Below the pieces are notes generated by a model. The model was not told the origin of the DNA. It made no database searches and saw only the letters and a list, made by a program, of their open reading frames with translations. Positions 4,321 through 21,825 of a DNA stretch of 26,088 nucleotides are shown in pieces (positions within the stretch are counted from its first letter, which is position 1; each line of letters opens with the position of its first letter). A program made the position numbers and the translations under genes. The DNA is from a virus: the IMG/VR virus record IMGVR_UViG_3300025110_000109, positions 1 through 26,088 of that record. One strand, 5' to 3'.

Positions 4321-4724
4321 CTAGTAGAAGAAACAGATTACTTAAAAAACTTATTGGGACAGCTACAGGAGAGGATGAAGCTAAACTTTACAAACTCACT
4401 ATTGAACGAGTTTGTGCCGATATGTGTGAATATTACTACAAGTTTTATCATAATGATGGGCCAGGGGCAATGGTTTATGTCCCTGATCATGAAGATGAAA
4501 AAAAATCAATGTTTTATTTGACGGTAGACAATCTTATAAGTGCGGTTGATGACCTTAATAAGAAAGATATGGAAGGTGCAGCAGACGTTATGAAGCAGGC
4601 TATCGTAAGAGCTGAAAAATTAGATCCCGATAAAGAAGCTTTATTTATCATTCAAGATTCCAAAGAAATGTCTTTAGTACATTATAAAATTGATAGTGAA
4701 GGTGCAGAATTTAAAATGATGTGA
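4317..4724 (+). CDS. Hypothetical acidic-tailed protein (135 aa)
   Basis: Unrecognised. The N-terminus is basic (MTSRRNRLLKKLIG). A helical, aromatic-rich segment follows (CADMCEYYYKFYHND), then an acidic region with alternating helices (LISAVDDLNKKDMEGAADVMKQAIVRAEKL). There is no catalytic motif. It starts within the ATGA overlap with the 3715 gene, and its TGA overlaps the GTG start of the methylase-like gene at 4721. The three therefore form a tightly coupled operon. By association it may act with the methylase-like protein, but this rests on gene order only. Confidence 0.65.
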   Translation: MTSRRNRLLKKLIGTATGEDEAKLYKLTIERVCADMCEYYYKFYHNDGPGAMVYVPDHEDEKKSMFYLTVDNLISAVDDLNKKDMEGAADVMKQAIVRAEKLDPDKEALFIIQDSKEMSLVHYKIDSEGAEFKMM

Positions 4725-5326
4725 AGAATAAACAATATCTTTCTAAACAGATATATGATTTGACTGATGATTGGCTTACTCCGTGTGAATATTTACCTTA
4801 TATAGACGCATTATTAGGCGATATTGATTTAGATCCTTGCTCCACACATAGTGCAAATGTTGAGTTTTTAAAAGCAAAAAAAATATACACACCTAAAGAT
4901 GATGGTTTAAATATTGATGATCCTTGGACTGGATCCGTCTATCTGTTCCCACCTACAGTAGGACGCTGTTCTTTTTTACAGGAACGAGGAACATGGAGGT
5001 GGAGTGTAAAAGCTGGTACTGGAGCTAAAGCCCCAAGTGTTATCTGGTTTAGAAGACTGCTTAGAGAATGGAAACTACGAAATATTTATCAAGCTTTATT
5101 TTTTTCTACATATCCAGAAATGTTTAGAATATGTCCAGAAATATGGGATTACCCAATGTGTTTTCCTACAAATAGAGTTAATTTAATTCATGGAAAAGGT
5201 ATGTATACTTTGCAATCTCCTGTTTATTGGGGATATTTTATATACTTACCTAAATTAGAGTTCGGGTTCCAGCAAACGGATAAATTTAAAGATATCTTTT
5301 CCCATATTGGAAAAGTAGTTACTTAA
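4721..5326 (+). CDS. Dam-like (phage N6-adenine methylase family) protein with altered NPPY motif (201 aa)
   Basis: The hallmarks of the phage N-6-adenine methyltransferase family are present in order: DDWLTP at 16-21, GDIDLDPC at 33-40 (the usual 'xIDLDPcs'), YTPKDDGL at 56-63, W69, and 'GSVYLFPPT' at 71-79 where family members read 'vwlNPPY'. The catalytic Asn is thus Phe and the Tyr is Thr. The rest of the fold seems kept, including PEIWDYPMCFPTNRV (139-153), which matches the position where Dam-like proteins read 'f...Ri.F'. Methyl transfer by the normal mechanism is doubtful. It may be a DNA-binding decoy or a diverged enzyme. The start is GTG, overlapping the upstream TGA. Its stop TTAA is shared with the convergent gene at 5323. 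Confidence 0.75.
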   Translation: MKNKQYLSKQIYDLTDDWLTPCEYLPYIDALLGDIDLDPCSTHSANVEFLKAKKIYTPKDDGLNIDDPWTGSVYLFPPTVGRCSFLQERGTWRWSVKAGTGAKAPSVIWFRRLLREWKLRNIYQALFFSTYPEMFRICPEIWDYPMCFPTNRVNLIHGKGMYTLQSPVYWGYFIYLPKLEFGFQQTDKFKDIFSHIGKVVT

Positions 5327-5937: not shown

Positions 5938-6106
5938 ATACAAAGATTTAATCAAAAACTACACCCCAGAAATGGAACTAATTGATGCTTTAGATTATCT
6001 TAGAGATCAACCTTGGCTCGCTTCGGAGATCCTAGACCACTTGGCTTCTCGTTCCAGTAACGAAAAAATCGACGTAAAACATCTCCTGAAGGATCAAATT
6101 CTTTAA
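5930..6106 (+). CDS. Small ORF overlapping the lysozyme gene antisense (58 aa)
   Basis: An open frame begins with ATG inside the last codons of the DUF1599-like gene (ATGATTGA overlap) and runs 58 codons to a TAA. Its product is balanced and helical looking, opening MIEYKDLIKNYTPEMELIDA and continuing with short helices (YLRDQPWLASEILDHLAS). It has an ordinary protein composition rather than that of a random antisense frame. The last 107 nt lie antisense to the 3' end of the lysozyme gene. Close coupling to the upstream gene supports translation. No family recognised. Confidence 0.5.
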   Translation: MIEYKDLIKNYTPEMELIDALDYLRDQPWLASEILDHLASRSSNEKIDVKHLLKDQIL

Positions 6107-6716
6107 ATTTCTTTTCTAAATACTCTATTCCTTTAATTTGATTAGAAGATCCGTTATAAGTTTCTACTAAATTCAATAAACAAGCCTCAGTATGACATTG
6201 ATGGCGATAGAAGGTTGGTATTTCTTTATCTGCAGCGAAATACATATCCACTTCTGCTCGTCTTCTAGCAACCATTAGATCTCCTCCAGACATCCAATAG
6301 GTATTAATGTAAGGACTCCATTCTTTAATAATTTTACTTTTAGAAGAATAACTATTAATAAGCTCTAATAATCTGCAGTTTTTAAAAGATTGAATACCAA
6401 TACTATGAGCAAAACTTAAAAGTGCTGCCTTTCTATTATTATTTAAACTAACAAAAACGTAATCCTTTAATTTATTAGAAAATTCTTTTAAATCTAAATA
6501 AAATTGTTTATCTATATCCTCTTGAGTAGCTCTGTCTTTTGAATTAAGAGCATGACCATTTAATTCTAAACTTCCATATCCAATTTTCCAATCTTTTTCG
6601 CCAAAATCTTGATAGGCTGCATATTTTCCTAAACCAAGAAATGTCCTTGGCGAGGTATAAGATTTTGTTAATTTAAAGCCTTTTTCCGAAAAGAATGGAT
6701 ATTTAGGGAACGTCAA
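6000..6716 (-). CDS. Phage lysozyme / endolysin, GH24-like (238 aa)
   Basis: Cell-wall muramidase for host lysis. The GH24 pattern is visible: AAYQDFGEKDWKIGYGSLELNG at residues 33-54 (the usual 'aYqD..g..TIGyG'), 'ALLSFAHSIGIQSFKNCRLL' at 98-117 (the 'l.sf.fN.G...f..StLl' block), and 'WMSGGDLMVARRRAEVDMYF' at 141-160 (the 'w...GG..lvrRR.aE.dly' block). The catalytic Glu is not in the normal spacing before the YQD. E11 in 'SEKGFKL' could be it if there is an insertion of about 16 residues; otherwise it is missing. The C-terminal 70 residues are an extra tail. The only plausible start is TTG 6716, giving a 14-nt overlap with the upstream gene. A lysozyme in the same block as small membrane proteins suggests a lysis set. 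Confidence 0.8.
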   Translation of the reverse strand: MTFPKYPFFSEKGFKLTKSYTSPRTFLGLGKYAAYQDFGEKDWKIGYGSLELNGHALNSKDRATQEDIDKQFYLDLKEFSNKLKDYVFVSLNNNRKAALLSFAHSIGIQSFKNCRLLELINSYSSKSKIIKEWSPYINTYWMSGGDLMVARRRAEVDMYFAADKEIPTFYRHQCHTEACLLNLVETYNGSSNQIKGIEYLEKKFKEFDPSGDVLRRFFRYWNEKPSGLGSPKRAKVDL

Positions 6717-7086
6717 CAGTGCCGTTGTAACTCACTTCAGAATAACCATCATATGTGAGTAAAACAACATAATCTTTACCAGCATTAGTAACTGTAATAC
6801 CTACTGCTCCTTTTCCTCTTCCTGCTTTTTCTATATCAAAAAATCTTTGGTATCCAGCAGGAGAGCTACTACCATCAAATGCATCTTTTTGAAATATCTG
6901 AACATTGCGAATACCTGATGTCTTTTCAAGATTGACAATGATATTACCTGTACCACCAGGGTTCACTTCAAAGCCTCTTACATCATCACTTTTATCGCCT
7001 GTGGTTGATCCACCTACGTATGTAATTTCTGATCCAGAGTCAACACTGAATGTGTCAAGGGTTCCGTTAATTCTTCTTGTAGCCAT
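6703..7086 (-). CDS. Small beta-domain protein, probable virion protein (127 aa)
   Basis: Beta-strand-rich protein opening MATRRINGTLDTFSVDSG, an N-terminus like those of cyanophage decoration or fiber-associated proteins. It has alternating Val/Thr/Gly strands such as GNIIVNLEKTSGIRNVQIF and GAVGITVTNAGKDYVVLLTYDGY. There is no signal peptide or membrane span. It sits directly upstream of the lysozyme gene with a 14-nt overlap and 5 nt downstream of the NblA-like gene, so these three are likely co-transcribed. A specific function cannot be assigned. A fold such as a PPC or Ig-like sandwich is possible. Confidence 0.6.
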   Translation of the reverse strand: MATRRINGTLDTFSVDSGSEITYVGGSTTGDKSDDVRGFEVNPGGTGNIIVNLEKTSGIRNVQIFQKDAFDGSSSPAGYQRFFDIEKAGRGKGAVGITVTNAGKDYVVLLTYDGYSEVSYNGTVDVP

Positions 7087-7091
7087 GTTTT

Positions 7092-7304
7092 TTAAGAAAT
7101 TTGACCTTCAGTTGAAAACTGAAATTGAATGTCTGCATCTATTCCGTGATCTTTCATAATGCCGTAGAACATTTGCCGATCCAATGCTTTTTGATGTAAA
7201 AGCTCAATAAATGCTTCTTCTAACTCTACTCGGTCTAAAGTTTGGATTGCGATCGCAGCAGCATGAATTGCAAATTCTTGATCTACTGGGAGATTGACTT
7301 CCAT
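7092..7304 (-). CDS. nblA: NblA-like phycobilisome degradation adaptor (70 aa)
   Basis: The size and residue pattern match NblA, the 55-65-residue helix-loop-helix adaptor that presents phycobiliproteins to the Clp protease in cyanobacteria. Residues 4-14 read NLPVDQEFAIH (NblA: 'LsLEQeFslr'). Residues 23-38 read LDRVELEEAFIELLHQ ('msReqaqellvelyrq'). Residues 39-55 read KALDRQMFYGIMKDHGI ('lmvRe.mYk.flK..wgl'). Two amphipathic helices are evident. nblA genes are known from freshwater cyanophages (Ma-LMM01, PaV-LD) and have been reported from marine cyanophage metagenomes, so a phage copy is plausible. An AAAGG lies about 12 nt before the ATG. An unrelated helical hairpin remains possible; the similarity was judged by eye. 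Confidence 0.6.
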   Translation of the reverse strand: MEVNLPVDQEFAIHAAAIAIQTLDRVELEEAFIELLHQKALDRQMFYGIMKDHGIDADIQFQFSTEGQIS

Positions 7305-7356: not shown

Positions 7357-7524
7357 CTATACAAACCACTCATCGTCTGATCTATTTAACCTTATAACTC
7401 TTGTAGTGTTTTGTTGAATCTTAAACCTTGGCTCATGTATTTTAAGATTTCTTTTTAGCAATACAGAACTGATTCCGTAACTACTACCAAAAAGAATAAT
7501 AAAACTTACAGCAATAGATCCCAT
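7357..7524 (-). CDS. Small single-pass membrane protein (55 aa)
   Basis: A short frame reads MGSIAVSFIILFGSSYGISS followed by VLLKRNLKIHE and a basic tail ending DDEWFV. The first 22 residues form one hydrophobic helix; the rest is basic and cytoplasmic by the positive-inside rule. It fills the gap between the NblA-like gene and the plus-strand oxygenase and heads the minus-strand run 6000-7524. The ribosome site is weak. A membrane peptide upstream of a lysozyme could be a holin-like or host-membrane effector, but this is inference. Confidence 0.5.
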   Translation of the reverse strand: MGSIAVSFIILFGSSYGISSVLLKRNLKIHEPRFKIQQNTTRVIRLNRSDDEWFV

Positions 7525-7572: not shown

Positions 7573-8367
7573 ATGACAGTAGAAGATTTAGTCAAACACT
7601 TTATAGAGGCTTCTATTAGTGGGGCTAGTAAAACACAAGTACAAAGAAGATTTAAAGAATTATACAATCTCAGTAATGAACAGGTTCATAAACTTCAAAA
7701 ATTAGCAAAATTTAAAAGTAAACCTAAAAAAATCAATTATAAAGATTTTTACAAAAATAACATTACAGAAAAAACTCAACGGATTTACTATCCTTTTACA
7801 CAGCTATATAAAAAAGAAAATTTTTTATCAGATAAAGAATGTGACCAATTAATGCTAATGATATCTAGAAACCTCAGACCTTCAACTGTAGCTGACGACG
7901 GAGATACTTGTTTAGTAAACAACTACAGAACTAGCAAGACTGCAGACTTAAATTATTTTAAAGATCCTTTTTATCTATCAATAGATAGAAAAATATCTAA
8001 ATTAATGAATTTAGAACCATTTCTTGGAGAAACTATGCAGGCTCAAAAATATGAAGTAGGCGAATACTATAAAGAACATTATGATTTCTTTTCACCTTTT
8101 AATCATGAATTTAAAACATATTGTGAATGGATGGGACAAAGAACTTGGACTACTATGATCTATCTAAATGATGTTGAAGAAGGTGGAGAAACTTATTTTA
8201 AATATTTAAATTTAAAAATTAAACCAAAAAAAGGATTATTAGTAGCTTGGAATAACTTGTATATAAATGGATTCCCTAATTATAAAACGATGCATGAGGC
8301 ACTTCCACCAATTAAAGGTTCAAAATATATTATTACTAAATGGTGGAGGAGCTGGAGTTTAATTTAA
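7573..8367 (+). CDS. 2-oxoglutarate/Fe(II) dioxygenase, prolyl-4-hydroxylase type (264 aa)
   Basis: The C-terminal 190 residues are a P4Hc-type double-stranded beta helix. They contain the lead block 'LRPSTVADDGDTCLVNNYRTS' (101-121), the iron ligands H169 and D171 in 'KEHYDFF', 'MIYLNDVEEGGETYF' (195-209), the third iron ligand H241 in 'MHEALP', and K251 in 'KGSKYIITKWWR' as the likely 2-oxoglutarate carboxylate ligand. All catalytic residues are present, so the enzyme is probably active. It would hydroxylate a proline or similar residue in a protein, or conceivably a nucleic acid. The N-terminal 50 residues are a separate small helical, basic module. 2OG oxygenases are frequent in marine cyanophages; the substrate is unknown. 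The gene stands alone on the plus strand and ends 1 nt before the convergent 8368 gene. Confidence 0.85.
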   Translation: MTVEDLVKHFIEASISGASKTQVQRRFKELYNLSNEQVHKLQKLAKFKSKPKKINYKDFYKNNITEKTQRIYYPFTQLYKKENFLSDKECDQLMLMISRNLRPSTVADDGDTCLVNNYRTSKTADLNYFKDPFYLSIDRKISKLMNLEPFLGETMQAQKYEVGEYYKEHYDFFSPFNHEFKTYCEWMGQRTWTTMIYLNDVEEGGETYFKYLNLKIKPKKGLLVAWNNLYINGFPNYKTMHEALPPIKGSKYIITKWWRSWSLI

Positions 8368-8664
8368 TTACCATTTAACTTTATGTGACCAGTACCTAGC
8401 CGAAAACTTATCAGGATTTGAATCTTGTGCATTATGTCGAGCATAATATGATTTTTTTCTAGCTTTATCTTTGGCTGACTTTGGATTCTTACCAGCTCCC
8501 TTAACACCTTGCTGTCCAAATCTAATTATCTTTTCTTTACCGTCCTTACAGGCTTTTACAACATGAGACTTCGTCTTATGGCTAGGTGTCTTCTTAGGCT
8601 TATTACATTTCAAATGATCTTTTGAAAGTTTTTTAGCTTTTGCTCTCTTCGTTTTCGACGACAT
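8368..8664 (-). CDS. Small very basic phage protein, DUF5872/DUF6321-like (98 aa)
   Basis: A Lys-rich protein with the recurrent phage block 'VKACKDGKEKIIRFGQQGVKG', then 'AGKNPKSAKDKARKKSYYARH' and 'KFSARYWSHKVKW'. This set corresponds to a widespread uncharacterised phage domain (I believe DUF5872/DUF6321; name unchecked). It has two cysteines (C19, C38) and several histidines, so zinc binding is possible. The charge and compact motifs suggest nucleic-acid binding. The 5' end overlaps the 3' end of the Dps-like gene by 32 nt, so translation is probably coupled. Confidence 0.7.
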   Translation of the reverse strand: MSSKTKRAKAKKLSKDHLKCNKPKKTPSHKTKSHVVKACKDGKEKIIRFGQQGVKGAGKNPKSAKDKARKKSYYARHNAQDSNPDKFSARYWSHKVKW

Positions 8665-9145
8665 CCTTTTCTGTCTCGTAATTATATGTCAGTGTCGATC
8701 TAAGATGCCACTGATGTTTAGCGTGTTCTCTACCACGATCAGCTGCCATGTCTTGAGTGAGATCATCACCAATCATACCAGCATACTTTGCTAACTCTTC
8801 GAAAAGACCAGAAAGCACGTTGTGAGCCACACTTAATTCTAAGATGATTTTATCTTCGTCATATGGATTACTCATATCAATTTCTTGGAGTCTAGAACCT
8901 AGCAGGTTATCAACTCTCAATGGAGTCATTACATTTATTGATCTAGCATGCTCTGCAATAGAATCTACACCTGCATGCATCTCATCCTGTATGTCACCTG
9001 TCAAAAGATGGACTTGATAAAATTTAGAGCCATTTAAACCCCAATGAACTAATCTAGTTGTTTCTAAAACAAACATAGAATCTCTTAAGCACTGAATGAT
9101 TAGATCATTTACATATGCTCTGTCCTTTGGATTTACACTATCCAT
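8633..9145 (-). CDS. Dps-like ferritin-fold protein (170 aa)
   Basis: Four-helix, ferritin-like composition with the Dps ferroxidase signature 'VHWGLNGSKFYQVHLLTGDI...GVDSIAEHAR'. H34 and H46 (12 apart), D61 and E65 match E. coli Dps H51, H63, D78 and E82 in spacing. The position of Dps D67 is Gly50, with D51 adjacent. The tryptophan after the first His (W35) is also kept. Dps proteins oxidise and store iron and protect DNA. A phage copy could guard DNA against Fenton chemistry during infection or sequester iron. The C-terminus is acidic (EKDVVENEESKS) rather than a lysine-rich DNA-binding tail. The start ATG overlaps the upstream stop as TAATG. Confidence 0.7.
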   Translation of the reverse strand: MDSVNPKDRAYVNDLIIQCLRDSMFVLETTRLVHWGLNGSKFYQVHLLTGDIQDEMHAGVDSIAEHARSINVMTPLRVDNLLGSRLQEIDMSNPYDEDKIILELSVAHNVLSGLFEELAKYAGMIGDDLTQDMAADRGREHAKHQWHLRSTLTYNYETEKDVVENEESKS

Positions 9146-9333
9146 TAAATAATTTTTATAGTACCTTTCTGTACCTTAGCTCGAATGCTTTGATCTTCGC
9201 CACCCTCTGTCCTTGCTAAGGCATCTGGCATACGTGCCCTTTGTAATTCAGGCATATATTCCATAATTTTTTGGCTTTTATCTCTTAAAAATGCCTTAGC
9301 GTTAGCTTGAGATCCATCCGATGTAGAAGTCAT
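9145..9333 (-). CDS. Small hypothetical protein (62 aa)
   Basis: Unrecognised, soluble and helical looking (NAKAFLRDKSQKIMEYMPEL), with a basic end (RAKVQKGTIKII). Its start lies 32 nt inside the 3' end of the HNH endonuclease gene, and its stop overlaps the Dps-like start as TAATG. It is thus translationally linked in the chain HNH, this gene, Dps-like, basic DUF protein. That arrangement suggests expression together, but nothing in the sequence shows its function. Confidence 0.6.
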   Translation of the reverse strand: MTSTSDGSQANAKAFLRDKSQKIMEYMPELQRARMPDALARTEGGEDQSIRAKVQKGTIKII

Positions 9334-9712
9334 TTGTTATATACGGAGTAGCTTTATCTGAAGATACAAGCTTAATAGGAGCACTATTATCTTCTATCCA
9401 ATGCTTTATTTTACCAAGTCTTTCCTCTGAATAATAAGAATTAGATGGATTATACCAATCTTCTAGTAATACAGATCCTTTTGATCTATTACATTTAGAA
9501 CAGGAACAAATCATATTAGATTTGACATTATGTCCACCTTTATATTTCGGGACTATATGATCAATAGTCGCAGATTTTGTATCTAATTCTATATCACAAT
9601 ATGCACACTTCCATTCCCATGACTCAAATATTGACTGTCTAAATTTTCGTCGAGCATTACGAGGAGATAATTCAATTAGATTGACTAGTAGATCCTGCTC
9701 GCAATTAATCAT
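9302..9712 (-). CDS. HNH endonuclease (136 aa)
   Basis: A canonical HNH nuclease with structural zinc. CAYCD gives C36/C39. ATIDHIVPKYKGGHN at 48-62 holds the catalytic D51-H52. N66 lies in KSNM, and C71/C74 with N75 lie in CSKCNRSKG. All core residues are present, so activity is expected: a metal-dependent cut in double-stranded DNA. Free-standing HNH genes in phages are usually homing endonucleases. The short N-terminus (residues 1-30) is basic and there is no added DNA-binding domain. A strong hairpin covers the leader directly before the ATG, as in some T4-type homing genes whose ribosome site is masked. The next gene downstream begins inside its 3' end. Confidence 0.88.
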   Translation of the reverse strand: MINCEQDLLVNLIELSPRNARRKFRQSIFESWEWKCAYCDIELDTKSATIDHIVPKYKGGHNVKSNMICSCSKCNRSKGSVLLEDWYNPSNSYYSEERLGKIKHWIEDNSAPIKLVSSDKATPYITNDFYIGWISS

Positions 9713-12888: not shown

Positions 12889-13585
12889 GTTTCTTTTTTC
12901 TTTTTAATCCTTTAAATTTTTCTCTATCTTTTTTCCCAAAAAAACCTTTAATTCTTTTTATTAATTGTTTTATTAAGGGCTTTACTAACCTTAATAATAG
13001 GGGTGTTGCTGCTGCTGAAGCTGTTGCTACTACAGCTATTGCTGCTGTTGTACTGATTTGCCCTGTAGTTGGTAAATATTTATCAGTTGCAGTAGTTGGT
13101 TCATATAAAACTATACAAGTTTTTTTATCAGCACTGAGTTCATGACCTATAACTTTCTCTTCTCCATTACGTGTAAAATCTCCAACTCTTGGTTGGTTTG
13201 GAGAAGGGCATTCAACTTCTTTTTGTGGTGGGGGAAGATTATCTAAATTAGGTTGAGGAGTTTCTAATTCTGGAGCTGTGGTCACATTAGGTGGAGCTAC
13301 ATCTTCTACAAAAACTAAATCTTCAGGAACATAATCCATAGGAAAAAAATATGGCACAGTTCCATCACACAAAACTCTGCTACCTCTATCATCTTCAGTT
13401 ACGAGTTTTATTGATTTTTCATTAGCAGGATTAAATACAACACATCCTGGAACTTGGATTATGGGATTACCAATAGTTAAAGTTACAGGAGGACTGAAAG
13501 GTATCGCTTGTATAGGCGTATGAATATAACTATTTATAGGAATTATTTCTAAATTATTTATATTTATTTGATTTATTTCGGACAA
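12860..13585 (-). CDS. Proline-rich protein with C-terminal membrane anchor (241 aa)
   Basis: The N-terminal half is beta-rich with 'IQVPGCVVFNPANE' and 'VLCDGTVPYFFPMDYVPEDL'. A proline-rich linker follows (about residues 94-125, with 'NLDNLPPPQKEVECP'), then a small domain 'RVGDFTRNGEEKVIGHELSADKKTCIVLYEPTT', then a hydrophobic helix 'ISTTAAIAVVATASAAATPLLLRL' and a very basic tail. Four cysteines may form two disulphides. I recall this architecture from cyanomyovirus accessory proteins, unverified. The anchor and linker suggest a protein that spans from membrane or virion lumen outward. It is 2 nt downstream of the 13588 gene, in the same transcript, and faces the exported proteins 1-3. 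Confidence 0.7.
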   Translation of the reverse strand: MSEINQININNLEIIPINSYIHTPIQAIPFSPPVTLTIGNPIIQVPGCVVFNPANEKSIKLVTEDDRGSRVLCDGTVPYFFPMDYVPEDLVFVEDVAPPNVTTAPELETPQPNLDNLPPPQKEVECPSPNQPRVGDFTRNGEEKVIGHELSADKKTCIVLYEPTTATDKYLPTTGQISTTAAIAVVATASAAATPLLLRLVKPLIKQLIKRIKGFFGKKDREKFKGLKRKKKLISESRADD

Positions 13586-13587
13586 TT

Positions 13588-13812
13588 TTAAAAAGGACTA
13601 GGAATTTTAGGAATTACATCACCAGTAGCATCAGGCATTGGCAAAGCATCTCCTATAGCATCTCCTAAGCCACCTGTGACCTCTTCTAACGCCCTCTCTT
13701 TTATGTTGTTGATGATTGCATCTTTATTTAAATAAATACCTAATCCAGTTCCTACAACGGTCAAAGAAACTACACCCGAAGCAACAGCTATTGCATTAAA
13801 AATTTTCTGCAT
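13588..13812 (-). CDS. Small signal-anchored protein (74 aa)
   Basis: MQKIFNAIAVASGVVSLTVV plus GTGLGIY forms one hydrophobic N-terminal helix. A charged linker (LNKDAIINNIKERALEEV) and a Gly/Pro-rich tail (GGLGDAIGDALPMPDATGDV) ending IPSPF follow. This pattern recurs, as I recall, in short cyanophage proteins encoded beside the Pro-rich anchored protein. Position and shared anchoring suggest that the two act together at a membrane or in the virion. It is preceded by an AT-rich 62-nt gap, which separates it from the fiber genes. Confidence 0.65.
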   Translation of the reverse strand: MQKIFNAIAVASGVVSLTVVGTGLGIYLNKDAIINNIKERALEEVTGGLGDAIGDALPMPDATGDVIPKIPSPF

Positions 13813-13874
13813 TTTTTAAAAAATCTTATATTTTTATTCTACTGTTATTTTTAGAATCTAACCAGTCTTAATAA

Positions 13875-17449: not shown

Positions 17450-18619
17450 TTAAAGCTCCGCAGAAAAACCTAAGAAGAAACCTGTGCCATTTGCTCTTAA
17501 TTGCACAGCTTGACCAGTGCTAAGAGAAGCATCTGTTTGACTAGTGTTTACAACCGCAAGATAAGGAGTGGCTATAGCAAAAGTAGGTACAGTATTGCAA
17601 ACCTCATGAGTACTTGTTCTTGAAACAGAATAATCACTAGCAGTTCCAGAAGTTTCTAATGCTGTAGGTTTTGTTCTCAGAGTGGTGGGAAAATTAATTT
17701 GCATACTGGCAGTAGAACCCGTCATTTGCATACCTAGTGCATATCTTTGTCCAGTTGCATCACAAGTTGTTCGGTAGTAATATCTTTGACATAAACCAAG
17801 CTCCTTACCGAATGACCTATGCTCAAAATCTGTTACCACGCTGCCTACTTCTAATTGAACTCCTGTAAGATACCATTCATTGCTTGTGCTACTTGCAACA
17901 TTAGCAGTTTGACCTGCCCTACTATTTGCGTTTGATGTACCTTCCCAAGCTGCTGTAGGTAAAGTGCCACTTGTGAAATCAGTTCCAGCTAAAAGAACAA
18001 ATCTAAGATCTAAAGATCTGGCATTATCATTACCAAACGCACCAGTTGTGTCAGCAGGGAAAGAAACTGTATATCTATTCCAGTTGGAATCTGACACAGT
18101 ATAGACTGCACCTATATTTCTGTTATTGTCAGCATCATATAACCAAACAACATAATTACCACTTACATTAGTTTTTACATAAAAACTTACACTAAATTTT
18201 TTTGCTGCTGATGTACCTTTTGCAAAAGCCTGTAAGTTTTGACCTTCAAATCGTTGTTCTACTTCATACAATTCATTACTTGCTGGTGTCCGAGCAGTCG
18301 TGCAATCTATTTTAAGTGAACTACCAAAACCATCAGGAGAAGTTGTTGATTGACTTACGGTATATGCACCAACGTTTGAACCACTTGCATTAAATCTCCA
18401 TCTATCACAGACATTTTTGTAGCCACTTGAGTTGACACCAGTTTCAGATGTACCACGTTGAGCCACTTGCATAGCTCCGTTGATTATTAAATTTCTATTA
18501 CCTAACTCTCCAGCTAAAGGTAAAATATCATCTGTTAAATCTTGTTTTTCAGCTGCAGTAAAGTTTGTATTCTTTACGTTTGTAGAAAGCCTATCTGAAC
18601 TTACTGTTGTTAGAGCCAT
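17450..18619 (-). CDS. Tail fiber/receptor-binding protein with NLIINGAMQVAQRG motif (389 aa)
   Basis: An N-terminal coiled-coil/attachment part (residues 1-40) is followed by 'NRNLIINGAMQVAQRGTS' (41-58), widespread at the start of carbohydrate-binding receptor domains in marine phage tail proteins. A jelly-roll-like domain follows ('YEVEQRFEGQNLQAF', 'FSVSFYVKTNVSGNYVVWLYDADNN', 'WYLTGVQLEVGSVVTDFEHRSF'), then a C-terminal 'LGLCQRYYYRT' block. This is the typical layout of a host-glycan-binding adhesin. A strong ribosome site, AAGGAGGTATAAAAC, precedes the ATG. The largest adhesin of the minus-strand series and a likely host-range determinant. Confidence 0.78.
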   Translation of the reverse strand: MALTTVSSDRLSTNVKNTNFTAAEKQDLTDDILPLAGELGNRNLIINGAMQVAQRGTSETGVNSSGYKNVCDRWRFNASGSNVGAYTVSQSTTSPDGFGSSLKIDCTTARTPASNELYEVEQRFEGQNLQAFAKGTSAAKKFSVSFYVKTNVSGNYVVWLYDADNNRNIGAVYTVSDSNWNRYTVSFPADTTGAFGNDNARSLDLRFVLLAGTDFTSGTLPTAAWEGTSNANSRAGQTANVASSTSNEWYLTGVQLEVGSVVTDFEHRSFGKELGLCQRYYYRTTCDATGQRYALGMQMTGSTASMQINFPTTLRTKPTALETSGTASDYSVSRTSTHEVCNTVPTFAIATPYLAVVNTSQTDASLSTGQAVQLRANGTGFFLGFSAEL

Positions 18620-18632
18620 GTTTTATACCTCC

Positions 18633-18974
18633 TTAAGTCTGATCTAGATAACTTACAGTTGCATCTATTTTACTTGCAGTGGCAGCTCGTATTCTGAGAA
18701 TATCATTTGCTTGCATTATTATTTTTGATCCAGCTATTATTTCTAAAGAACTACCTGCAGGTACAGGTGCGTTTTTTATGAGATGAGTATTATCTCCACT
18801 ATTCTTTATTAAAGAAACATCAACCTGAACACTAGATGCTGAGGTATTTGAAAGTAAGATACTTAATAAAACTAGTGTTGAACTACCACCAGCGGTAACA
18901 ACAGTTGCATTAGAACTGGTAACGGCATCCGTTACTACGTTTAATTTAGTGTCGCTTTTGAAGGTATTTGCCAT
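18633..18974 (-). CDS. Small virion beta-sandwich protein (113 aa)
   Basis: Opens MANTFKSDTKLNVVTDAVTS, an N-terminus I know from marine cyanophage structural proteins ('MANTFKn...'). The 'STLVLLSILLSNTSASSVQVDVSLI' and 'HLIKNAPVPAGSSLEIIAGSKIIMQANDILRIRA' blocks match this family: repeated strands with a 'piPaGssLei..g.ki.l..gD.irv' core. It ends 'VSYLDQT'. It is probably a connector or baseplate-attached fiber subunit. It is tightly packed between the receptor-binding gene and the Mtd-N gene with no promoter evident. Confidence 0.7.
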   Translation of the reverse strand: MANTFKSDTKLNVVTDAVTSSNATVVTAGGSSTLVLLSILLSNTSASSVQVDVSLIKNSGDNTHLIKNAPVPAGSSLEIIAGSKIIMQANDILRIRAATASKIDATVSYLDQT

Positions 18975-20842: not shown

Positions 20843-21295
20843 TTAACTTATTTCTATTGGGGGCTCTGTCTTTACTACCAAAGATGTCGTAGTAGCAGCT
20901 TCACCAACCCTTGTCACAAAATGTCCTGAGCTAGATGGTGGAGTTTTTGTAATAGAACCTGCGGAACTTGCAGATAAAAAATAATGATCACCTGCATCTA
21001 GCCCTGAAACAGGAGTTATACCTTCAACAATACATCGAACTAAATTTCCAGCAGATACAGTTGTTTCTACAAAGCCTACTACCCTTGCTTTATCTTGTGT
21101 ATCATTAGCTATCGCCTTTCCAAGTTGACCATCACTAGATCTTGAAAATACAGCATCTCCTTGGTTTAAATTTTCAAAAGCATTTGCAGCAAAACCATTT
21201 ATCTTATTTGCTACCTGACCTGGAAAATTTGATTTTAAATCAATTAATGCTTCAGTAAGACCCTGAGCATTCGGTGCATAAGGTTCGTAAGACAT
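20843..21295 (-). CDS. Duplicated virion/fiber protein, copy B (150 aa)
   Basis: The N-terminus reads MSYEPYAPNAQGLTEALIDLKSNFP. A beta-rich domain follows: 'NAFENLNQGDAVFSRSSDGQLGKAI', 'DKARVVGFVETTVSAGNLVRCIVEG', 'VSGLDAGDHYFLSASSAGSITKTPPSS' and 'RVGEAATTTSLVVKTEPPIEIS'. The 'GLDAGDxyFLS...aGsIT.tPPss.G..v.rvGeA....L.v..EPPI' block is common in phage tail and decoration proteins. It is a tandem paralogue of the gene upstream, from which it is separated only by a 1-nt overlap. It is probably a structural or fiber-attachment subunit. Confidence 0.7.
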   Translation of the reverse strand: MSYEPYAPNAQGLTEALIDLKSNFPGQVANKINGFAANAFENLNQGDAVFSRSSDGQLGKAIANDTQDKARVVGFVETTVSAGNLVRCIVEGITPVSGLDAGDHYFLSASSAGSITKTPPSSSGHFVTRVGEAATTTSLVVKTEPPIEIS

Positions 21296-21825
21296 TAACT
21301 TAATTTAATAGGTGGTTCAATTTGAATAGATAATTTAGTTGCGGTTGCAGCCTCACCTATTCTTACGACTGCCTGACCTGCAGAAGAAGGAGGAGTTGCA
21401 GTTATTGCACCAGATGTAGTTGCAGATAAAAAAAACAAATCCCCTGCGTCTAATCCTGATATATCTTTTAGACCAGCAACAACAACCTGTAATGACTCAT
21501 CTGTTAATGCTGATATTTGTGCAAATCCTATTACAGAAGCATTTTCTAATAATCCATTTGCAGCACTGGCTTTACCAACTTTTCCATCAGATGTACGCAT
21601 AAATAAAGCATCTCCCTCAGTCACAGCCTCAAATGCAGTAGCTGTAAAAGTAACTTGTGCTGGAGCAAAAGTTGGAAATCCTTCTTTTAAATCAATTACT
21701 GCATCAACTAATCCTCTATAATTAGGCTCATATGGTTCACGAGCCTTATTAACATTATTGGCTATCATTAAATCTCTTAATGCAGCAATAGCTCCTTGTA
21801 TATTCGGTTCGTAACCTGTTGCCAT
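21295..21825 (-). CDS. Duplicated virion/fiber protein, copy A (176 aa)
   Basis: Homologous to the 20843 gene over its last 145 residues ('EPNYRGLVDAVIDLKEGFPTF', 'TAFEAVTEGDALFMRTSDGKVGKA', 'ISGLDAGDLFFLSATTSGAITATPPSSAGQAVVRIGEAAT', 'IQIEPPIKLS'). It has an extra N-terminal unit 'MATGYEPNIQGAIAALRDLM'. The motif 'YEPN.qG...Al.DL' thus occurs twice within this protein and once in the paralogue, a sign of stepwise duplication. It lies divergent from the plus-strand gene at 21880. Confidence 0.7.
   Translation of the reverse strand: MATGYEPNIQGAIAALRDLMIANNVNKAREPYEPNYRGLVDAVIDLKEGFPTFAPAQVTFTATAFEAVTEGDALFMRTSDGKVGKASAANGLLENASVIGFAQISALTDESLQVVVAGLKDISGLDAGDLFFLSATTSGAITATPPSSAGQAVVRIGEAATATKLSIQIEPPIKLS

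Follow-up and report, generated by a model that had tools for sequence, protein, structure and literature searches.

A divergent NblA-like gene in a cyanophage of the S-EIV1 lineage

The NblA-like gene and its neighbours

The window analysed here, a stretch of 26,088 nucleotides of viral DNA, carries on its minus strand a short gene at 7092..7304 that runs from ATG to TAA and encodes a protein of 70 residues (P0001, MEVNLPVDQEFAIHAAAIAIQTLDRVELEEAFIELLHQKALDRQMFYGIMKDHGIDADIQFQFSTEGQIS). The plus strand across the same interval is interrupted by stops, and AAGG, a weak Shine-Dalgarno-like stretch, lies 5' of the ATG. Directly downstream lies a conserved neighbour encoding a 127-aa protein with no PHROG match and no assigned function (6703..7086, minus), followed by the third gene of the conserved block, a phage lysozyme gene (6000..6716, minus; PF00959, E 8.6e-15). 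On the upstream side are a 55-aa ORF (7357..7524, minus), which is partly conserved in the related contig G002 and whose N-terminus is hydrophobic by eye, and a gene for a 2OG-Fe(II) oxygenase on the plus strand (7573..8367; PF13640). No Rfam families were found across the window.

Relatives of P0001 were detected in IMG/VR in number (115 in one scan and 257 in a second), and 34 of the 70 columns are invariant in the alignment of this window-type family (A1). The dN/dS ratio between the window and its relatives is 0.02-0.10, with a median of ~0.07 over all pairs, indicative of strong purifying selection. Retention of the gene was counted at loci fetched with the lysozyme as bait rather than with the NblA-like gene itself, and the order NblA-like gene, 127-aa gene, lysozyme was present in 33/33 loci having sufficient upstream sequence; since only relatives with a close lysozyme can be fetched in this way, the retention holds for that clade. 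A family member was also present in 14/14 long contigs, a figure that is no measure of retention because these contigs were picked via the NblA-like gene. Because of its many relatives, its low dN/dS and its retention, 7092-7304 is a genuine gene and no chance ORF, and in the clade tested it belongs to the constant gene set of one group of ocean cyanophages. A 78%-identical copy was also seen at 5001-5204 (locus L082) of QQUU01000116.1; this contig is assigned to a Bacteroidetes MAG but is probably of phage origin and misbinned.

Synteny is seen between the window and the contigs G001 and G002, which have terminase, structural/capsid-region genes, primase and DNA polymerase A in common with S-EIV1, mostly at 30-70% identity; by these comparisons the window phage belongs to the S-EIV1 lineage. 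Genomes of the S-EIV1 group are known from marine viromes, and hli and ptoX, but not nblA, were listed for them there (PMC5332604). In the S-EIV1 literature consulted, nblA is not reported for S-EIV1 or its group, although the gene may have been noted before. An uncultured marine cyanophage lineage with nblA, an integrase and a split DNA polymerase was reportedly described by Flores-Uribe and by Nadel in 2019. The window's relatives resemble that lineage in being marine and uncultured and in the nblA reported for it, but no phage integrase was found in 8 related contigs, which may be incomplete, and the family A polymerase is an unsplit single frame of 609-632 aa in four related contigs; the two lineages may nevertheless overlap.

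Resemblance to NblA

The original prediction described a two-helix protein with the motif order of NblA. QEF (residues 9-11), LDRVELEEAFIELLHQ (23-38) and RQMFYGIMKDHGI (43-55) do follow one another in P0001, but RQMFYGIMKDHGI is not terminal as had been stated, since a 15-residue tail that is likewise conserved comes after it. With the wider alignment, AlphaFold predicted helices at 7-21 and 25-52 (monomer; mean pLDDT 79.6, pTM 0.50), leaving a conserved C-terminal tail at 53-70, and the same two helices came out of the narrower alignment, with lower confidence. A short helix paired with a long one is the NblA layout. This moderately confident model agrees with the predicted two helices and supports the view of P0001 as a small helix-loop-helix protein like NblA. 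Searches of PDB and BFVD with the predicted monomer through Foldseek/VIA-align gave no relevant match, a two-helix monomer being too small to inform.

P0001 alone matched no Pfam family and stayed below the curated cut-off of PF04485, which governs automatic annotation, not homology. A PHROG scan of the single sequence returned nothing useful, and only 2/23 close relatives gave weak PF04485 matches (best 0.05). The top match of P0001 in a phmmer search of PDB was NblA 3cs5 (E=0.0022), and the A1 profile reached 3cs5 at 5.7e-4 and 1ojh at 0.053. In the S-EIV1 genome, a profile match was located beside the lysozyme in the ORF 73893-74222, whose protein AHV82245 (73902-74222) is annotated as hypothetical and forms with its relatives a second large family (S-EIV1-type). 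All 21/21 S-EIV1-type relatives matched PF04485 (best 6e-6), with three contigs above the curated cut-off, and hhalign connected the two families at 91.6%. A joint profile of the window-type family and the S-EIV1-type relatives (A5) placed both NblA crystal sequences (3cs5, 1ojh) first at 1.9e-5, with the next match at 0.044; the choice of members and the merging of two families were ours, and the single-sequence and A1-only results agree with A5 but are weaker. Comparison with NblA by hhalign gave 92.9% and 95.2% with scores of 38.3 and 46.4, whereas none of 300 column shuffles scored above 21.7. Isolate phages searched by tblastn yielded no useful match to P0001, to one of its relatives or to two canonical NblAs. 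The Pfam NblA profile, which had been proposed as a check, thus missed P0001 itself and recognized the linked S-EIV1-type family throughout; the NblA identity that had been proposed is backed by the family profiles, and at the level of sequence the NblA homology of the window-type family is well supported.

P0001 resembles cyanobacterial NblA (PF04485; 3cs5, 1ojh) in length, in helix layout and in a near-gapless core alignment of 59 columns with one gap. The start L..(E/D)(Q/V)(E/Q)F is common to both, and the conserved Lys51 of P0001 aligns to the ELLK lysine of Anabaena NblA, a region that presumably matters in phycobilisome binding. In contrast, P0001 and canonical NblA are no more than 14-29% identical, P0001 scores below the Pfam threshold, and it has an extra tail of ~15 residues, DHGIDA-D/N-I-x-F...ST..QIS; the invariant H37-Q38-K39 and KDHGIDA of the window family also distinguish it from the NblAs aligned here. 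The freshwater phages Ma-LMM01 and PaV-LD likewise carry NblA, but theirs pass PF04485 easily (1e-13 and 4e-12), and no lysozyme block surrounds them in the annotated regions examined. NblAs of marine T4-like phages (S-SCSM1, S-TIM5 type) are remote NblA relatives detected by HHpred (PMC9602691); P0001 is a remote relative too but is not close to them, and it is a second NblA-like ORF of the lineage that matches instead. AHV82245 comes from the same phage lineage, has lysozyme nearby and matches the profile, but with 106 aa and an acidic C-terminus it falls in a separate family.

NblA connects phycobiliproteins with ClpC (PMC7966870), and laboratory cyanobacteria expressing NblAs of freshwater phages or marine metagenomes lose phycobilin (PMC9602691). 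By its homology to phage NblAs shown to have this effect, P0001 most probably functions like known NblA. P0001 would form the NblA four-helix dimer, one face of which would hold phycobiliproteins and the opposite face the host's ClpC chaperone. Light-harvesting proteins would thereby be handed to the Clp protease in infected cells, which would release amino acids and reduce light capture. By this analogy it is plausible that P0001 dismantles phycobilisomes. We put at about 60% the probability that 7092-7304 encodes a divergent NblA family member of an S-EIV1-like cyanophage that delivers phycobiliproteins to Clp as proposed. The missing Pfam match of P0001 itself, the low identity to canonical NblA, the absence of a relevant fold match in PDB or BFVD and a host not known to possess phycobilisomes speak against this reading. 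An NblA-type protease adaptor would then be a retained gene of a cyanophage lineage that is widespread and almost uncultured, and automatic annotation overlooks it there.

Further NblA-like families in the lineage

The window-type and S-EIV1-type genes were also considered as simple orthologues, which was rejected because both occur in the S-EIV1-like contig G009. This contig encodes an S-EIV1-type gene at 6014-6313 and a window-type gene at 87601-87816 (loci L410, 6014-6313, and L411, 17601-17816), so the two are separate families, though the pair comes from one assembled contig in which chimerism is possible. The window-type gene of G009 lies away from lysozyme and adjoins a homologue of the window's 2OG-Fe(II) oxygenase.

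A second NblA-like ORF is located away from the window-type gene in G001 (18581-18826, minus), G002 (69986-70234, plus), G004 (29002-29253, plus), G003 (13547-13828, minus) and G006 (1194-1475, minus), and S-EIV1 has one at 27768-27986 (plus), of the S-SCSM1-type ORF family. The sole Pfam match of the G001 copy is PF04485 at 0.0052, under the cut-off, and the profile of these ORFs finds the annotated S-SCSM1 NblA at 4.5e-6 (small test set, 2000 shuffles). NblA1 and NblA2 of Synechocystis are said to act as a heterodimer, a finding attributed to Baier in 2014, which makes a pairing of the two phage proteins worth considering; that the window-type and the second NblA-like protein might act as a pair is, by analogy, an idea worth testing.

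Host and cargo of the putative adaptor

A phycobilisome-bearing, Synechococcus-like host had been favoured over Prochlorococcus on the strength of the gene. This is not supported; the psbA of three relatives and the ~33-34.5% GC of the window's clade lean the opposite way, not decisively. With a reference set of 11 phages picked from match lists, psbA of G001, G002 and G004 groups with Prochlorococcus-phage psbA, and a 100/99 branch separates five Synechococcus-phage sequences. However, S-TIM4, listed with Synechococcus WH8102, also falls within the Prochlorococcus-phage clade, so psbA type is no strict host marker, and psbA is absent from the window itself. GC content is 34.5-34.6% for the window, 34.5% for G001 and ~33% for several of the close relatives. 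It is 45.9% for S-EIV1, the nearest isolate, which infects a Synechococcus, and some members further removed reach 45-47%. No tRNAs that could serve as a host clue were found in the relatives, nor was CpeT in related contigs, which may be incomplete. Some phages of the group may infect a host without a phycobilisome antenna.

Depending on the host, the target could be the whole phycobilisome, residual phycoerythrin or another protein. In a tentative alternative that we consider rather unlikely, the NblA-fold adaptor docks on ClpC but delivers other cargo, namely non-phycobilisome host proteins such as the residual phycoerythrin of Prochlorococcus or other antenna or regulatory proteins. The psbA grouping and the low GC speak for such retargeting, as does the fact that Prochlorococcus has neither phycobilisomes nor nblA orthologues (PMC7439483). 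The conserved tail is common to phage families only, and the low omega points to a working partner. The psbA of S-TIM4, the Synechococcus host of S-EIV1 and the lack of psbA in the window count against it. The fuller version, that a Prochlorococcus-infecting clade keeps a retargeted NblA-type Clp adaptor, possibly paired with the lineage's second NblA-like protein, seems to us slightly more doubtful still. It raises the question of the adaptor's substrate in phages with a Prochlorococcus-like photosynthesis gene.

It is improbable that P0001 instead belongs to the lysis block as a small helical regulator or partner of lysozyme, its likeness to NblA then reflecting convergence of two short helices. 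Weak profile matches come easily for short helical proteins, the 127-aa protein and lysozyme are always adjacent in the tested clade, and the S-EIV1-type copy is beside lysozyme too; however, NblA is the top specific match of several profiles, far over the shuffled controls, and the window-type copy of G009 sits beside the 2OG oxygenase instead. A spurious ORF or chance resemblance, suggested by the short length and the missing Pfam match of P0001, has next to no probability, its reality as a gene being settled by >250 homologues, omega ~0.07 and the 33/33 retention.

Elsewhere in the window, a Dps/ferritin-like protein (PF00210) is encoded at 8633-9145, and S-EIV1 also has an annotated DNA-binding ferritin-like protein. 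Two genes are of HNH-endonuclease type (1104-2240 and 9302-9712), and a Dam-like DNA methyltransferase at 4721-5326 is under the Pfam cut-off. The genes at 20843-21295 and 21295-21825 are adjacent paralogues; in G001 as well as in G002, each of them matches the two neighbouring genes.
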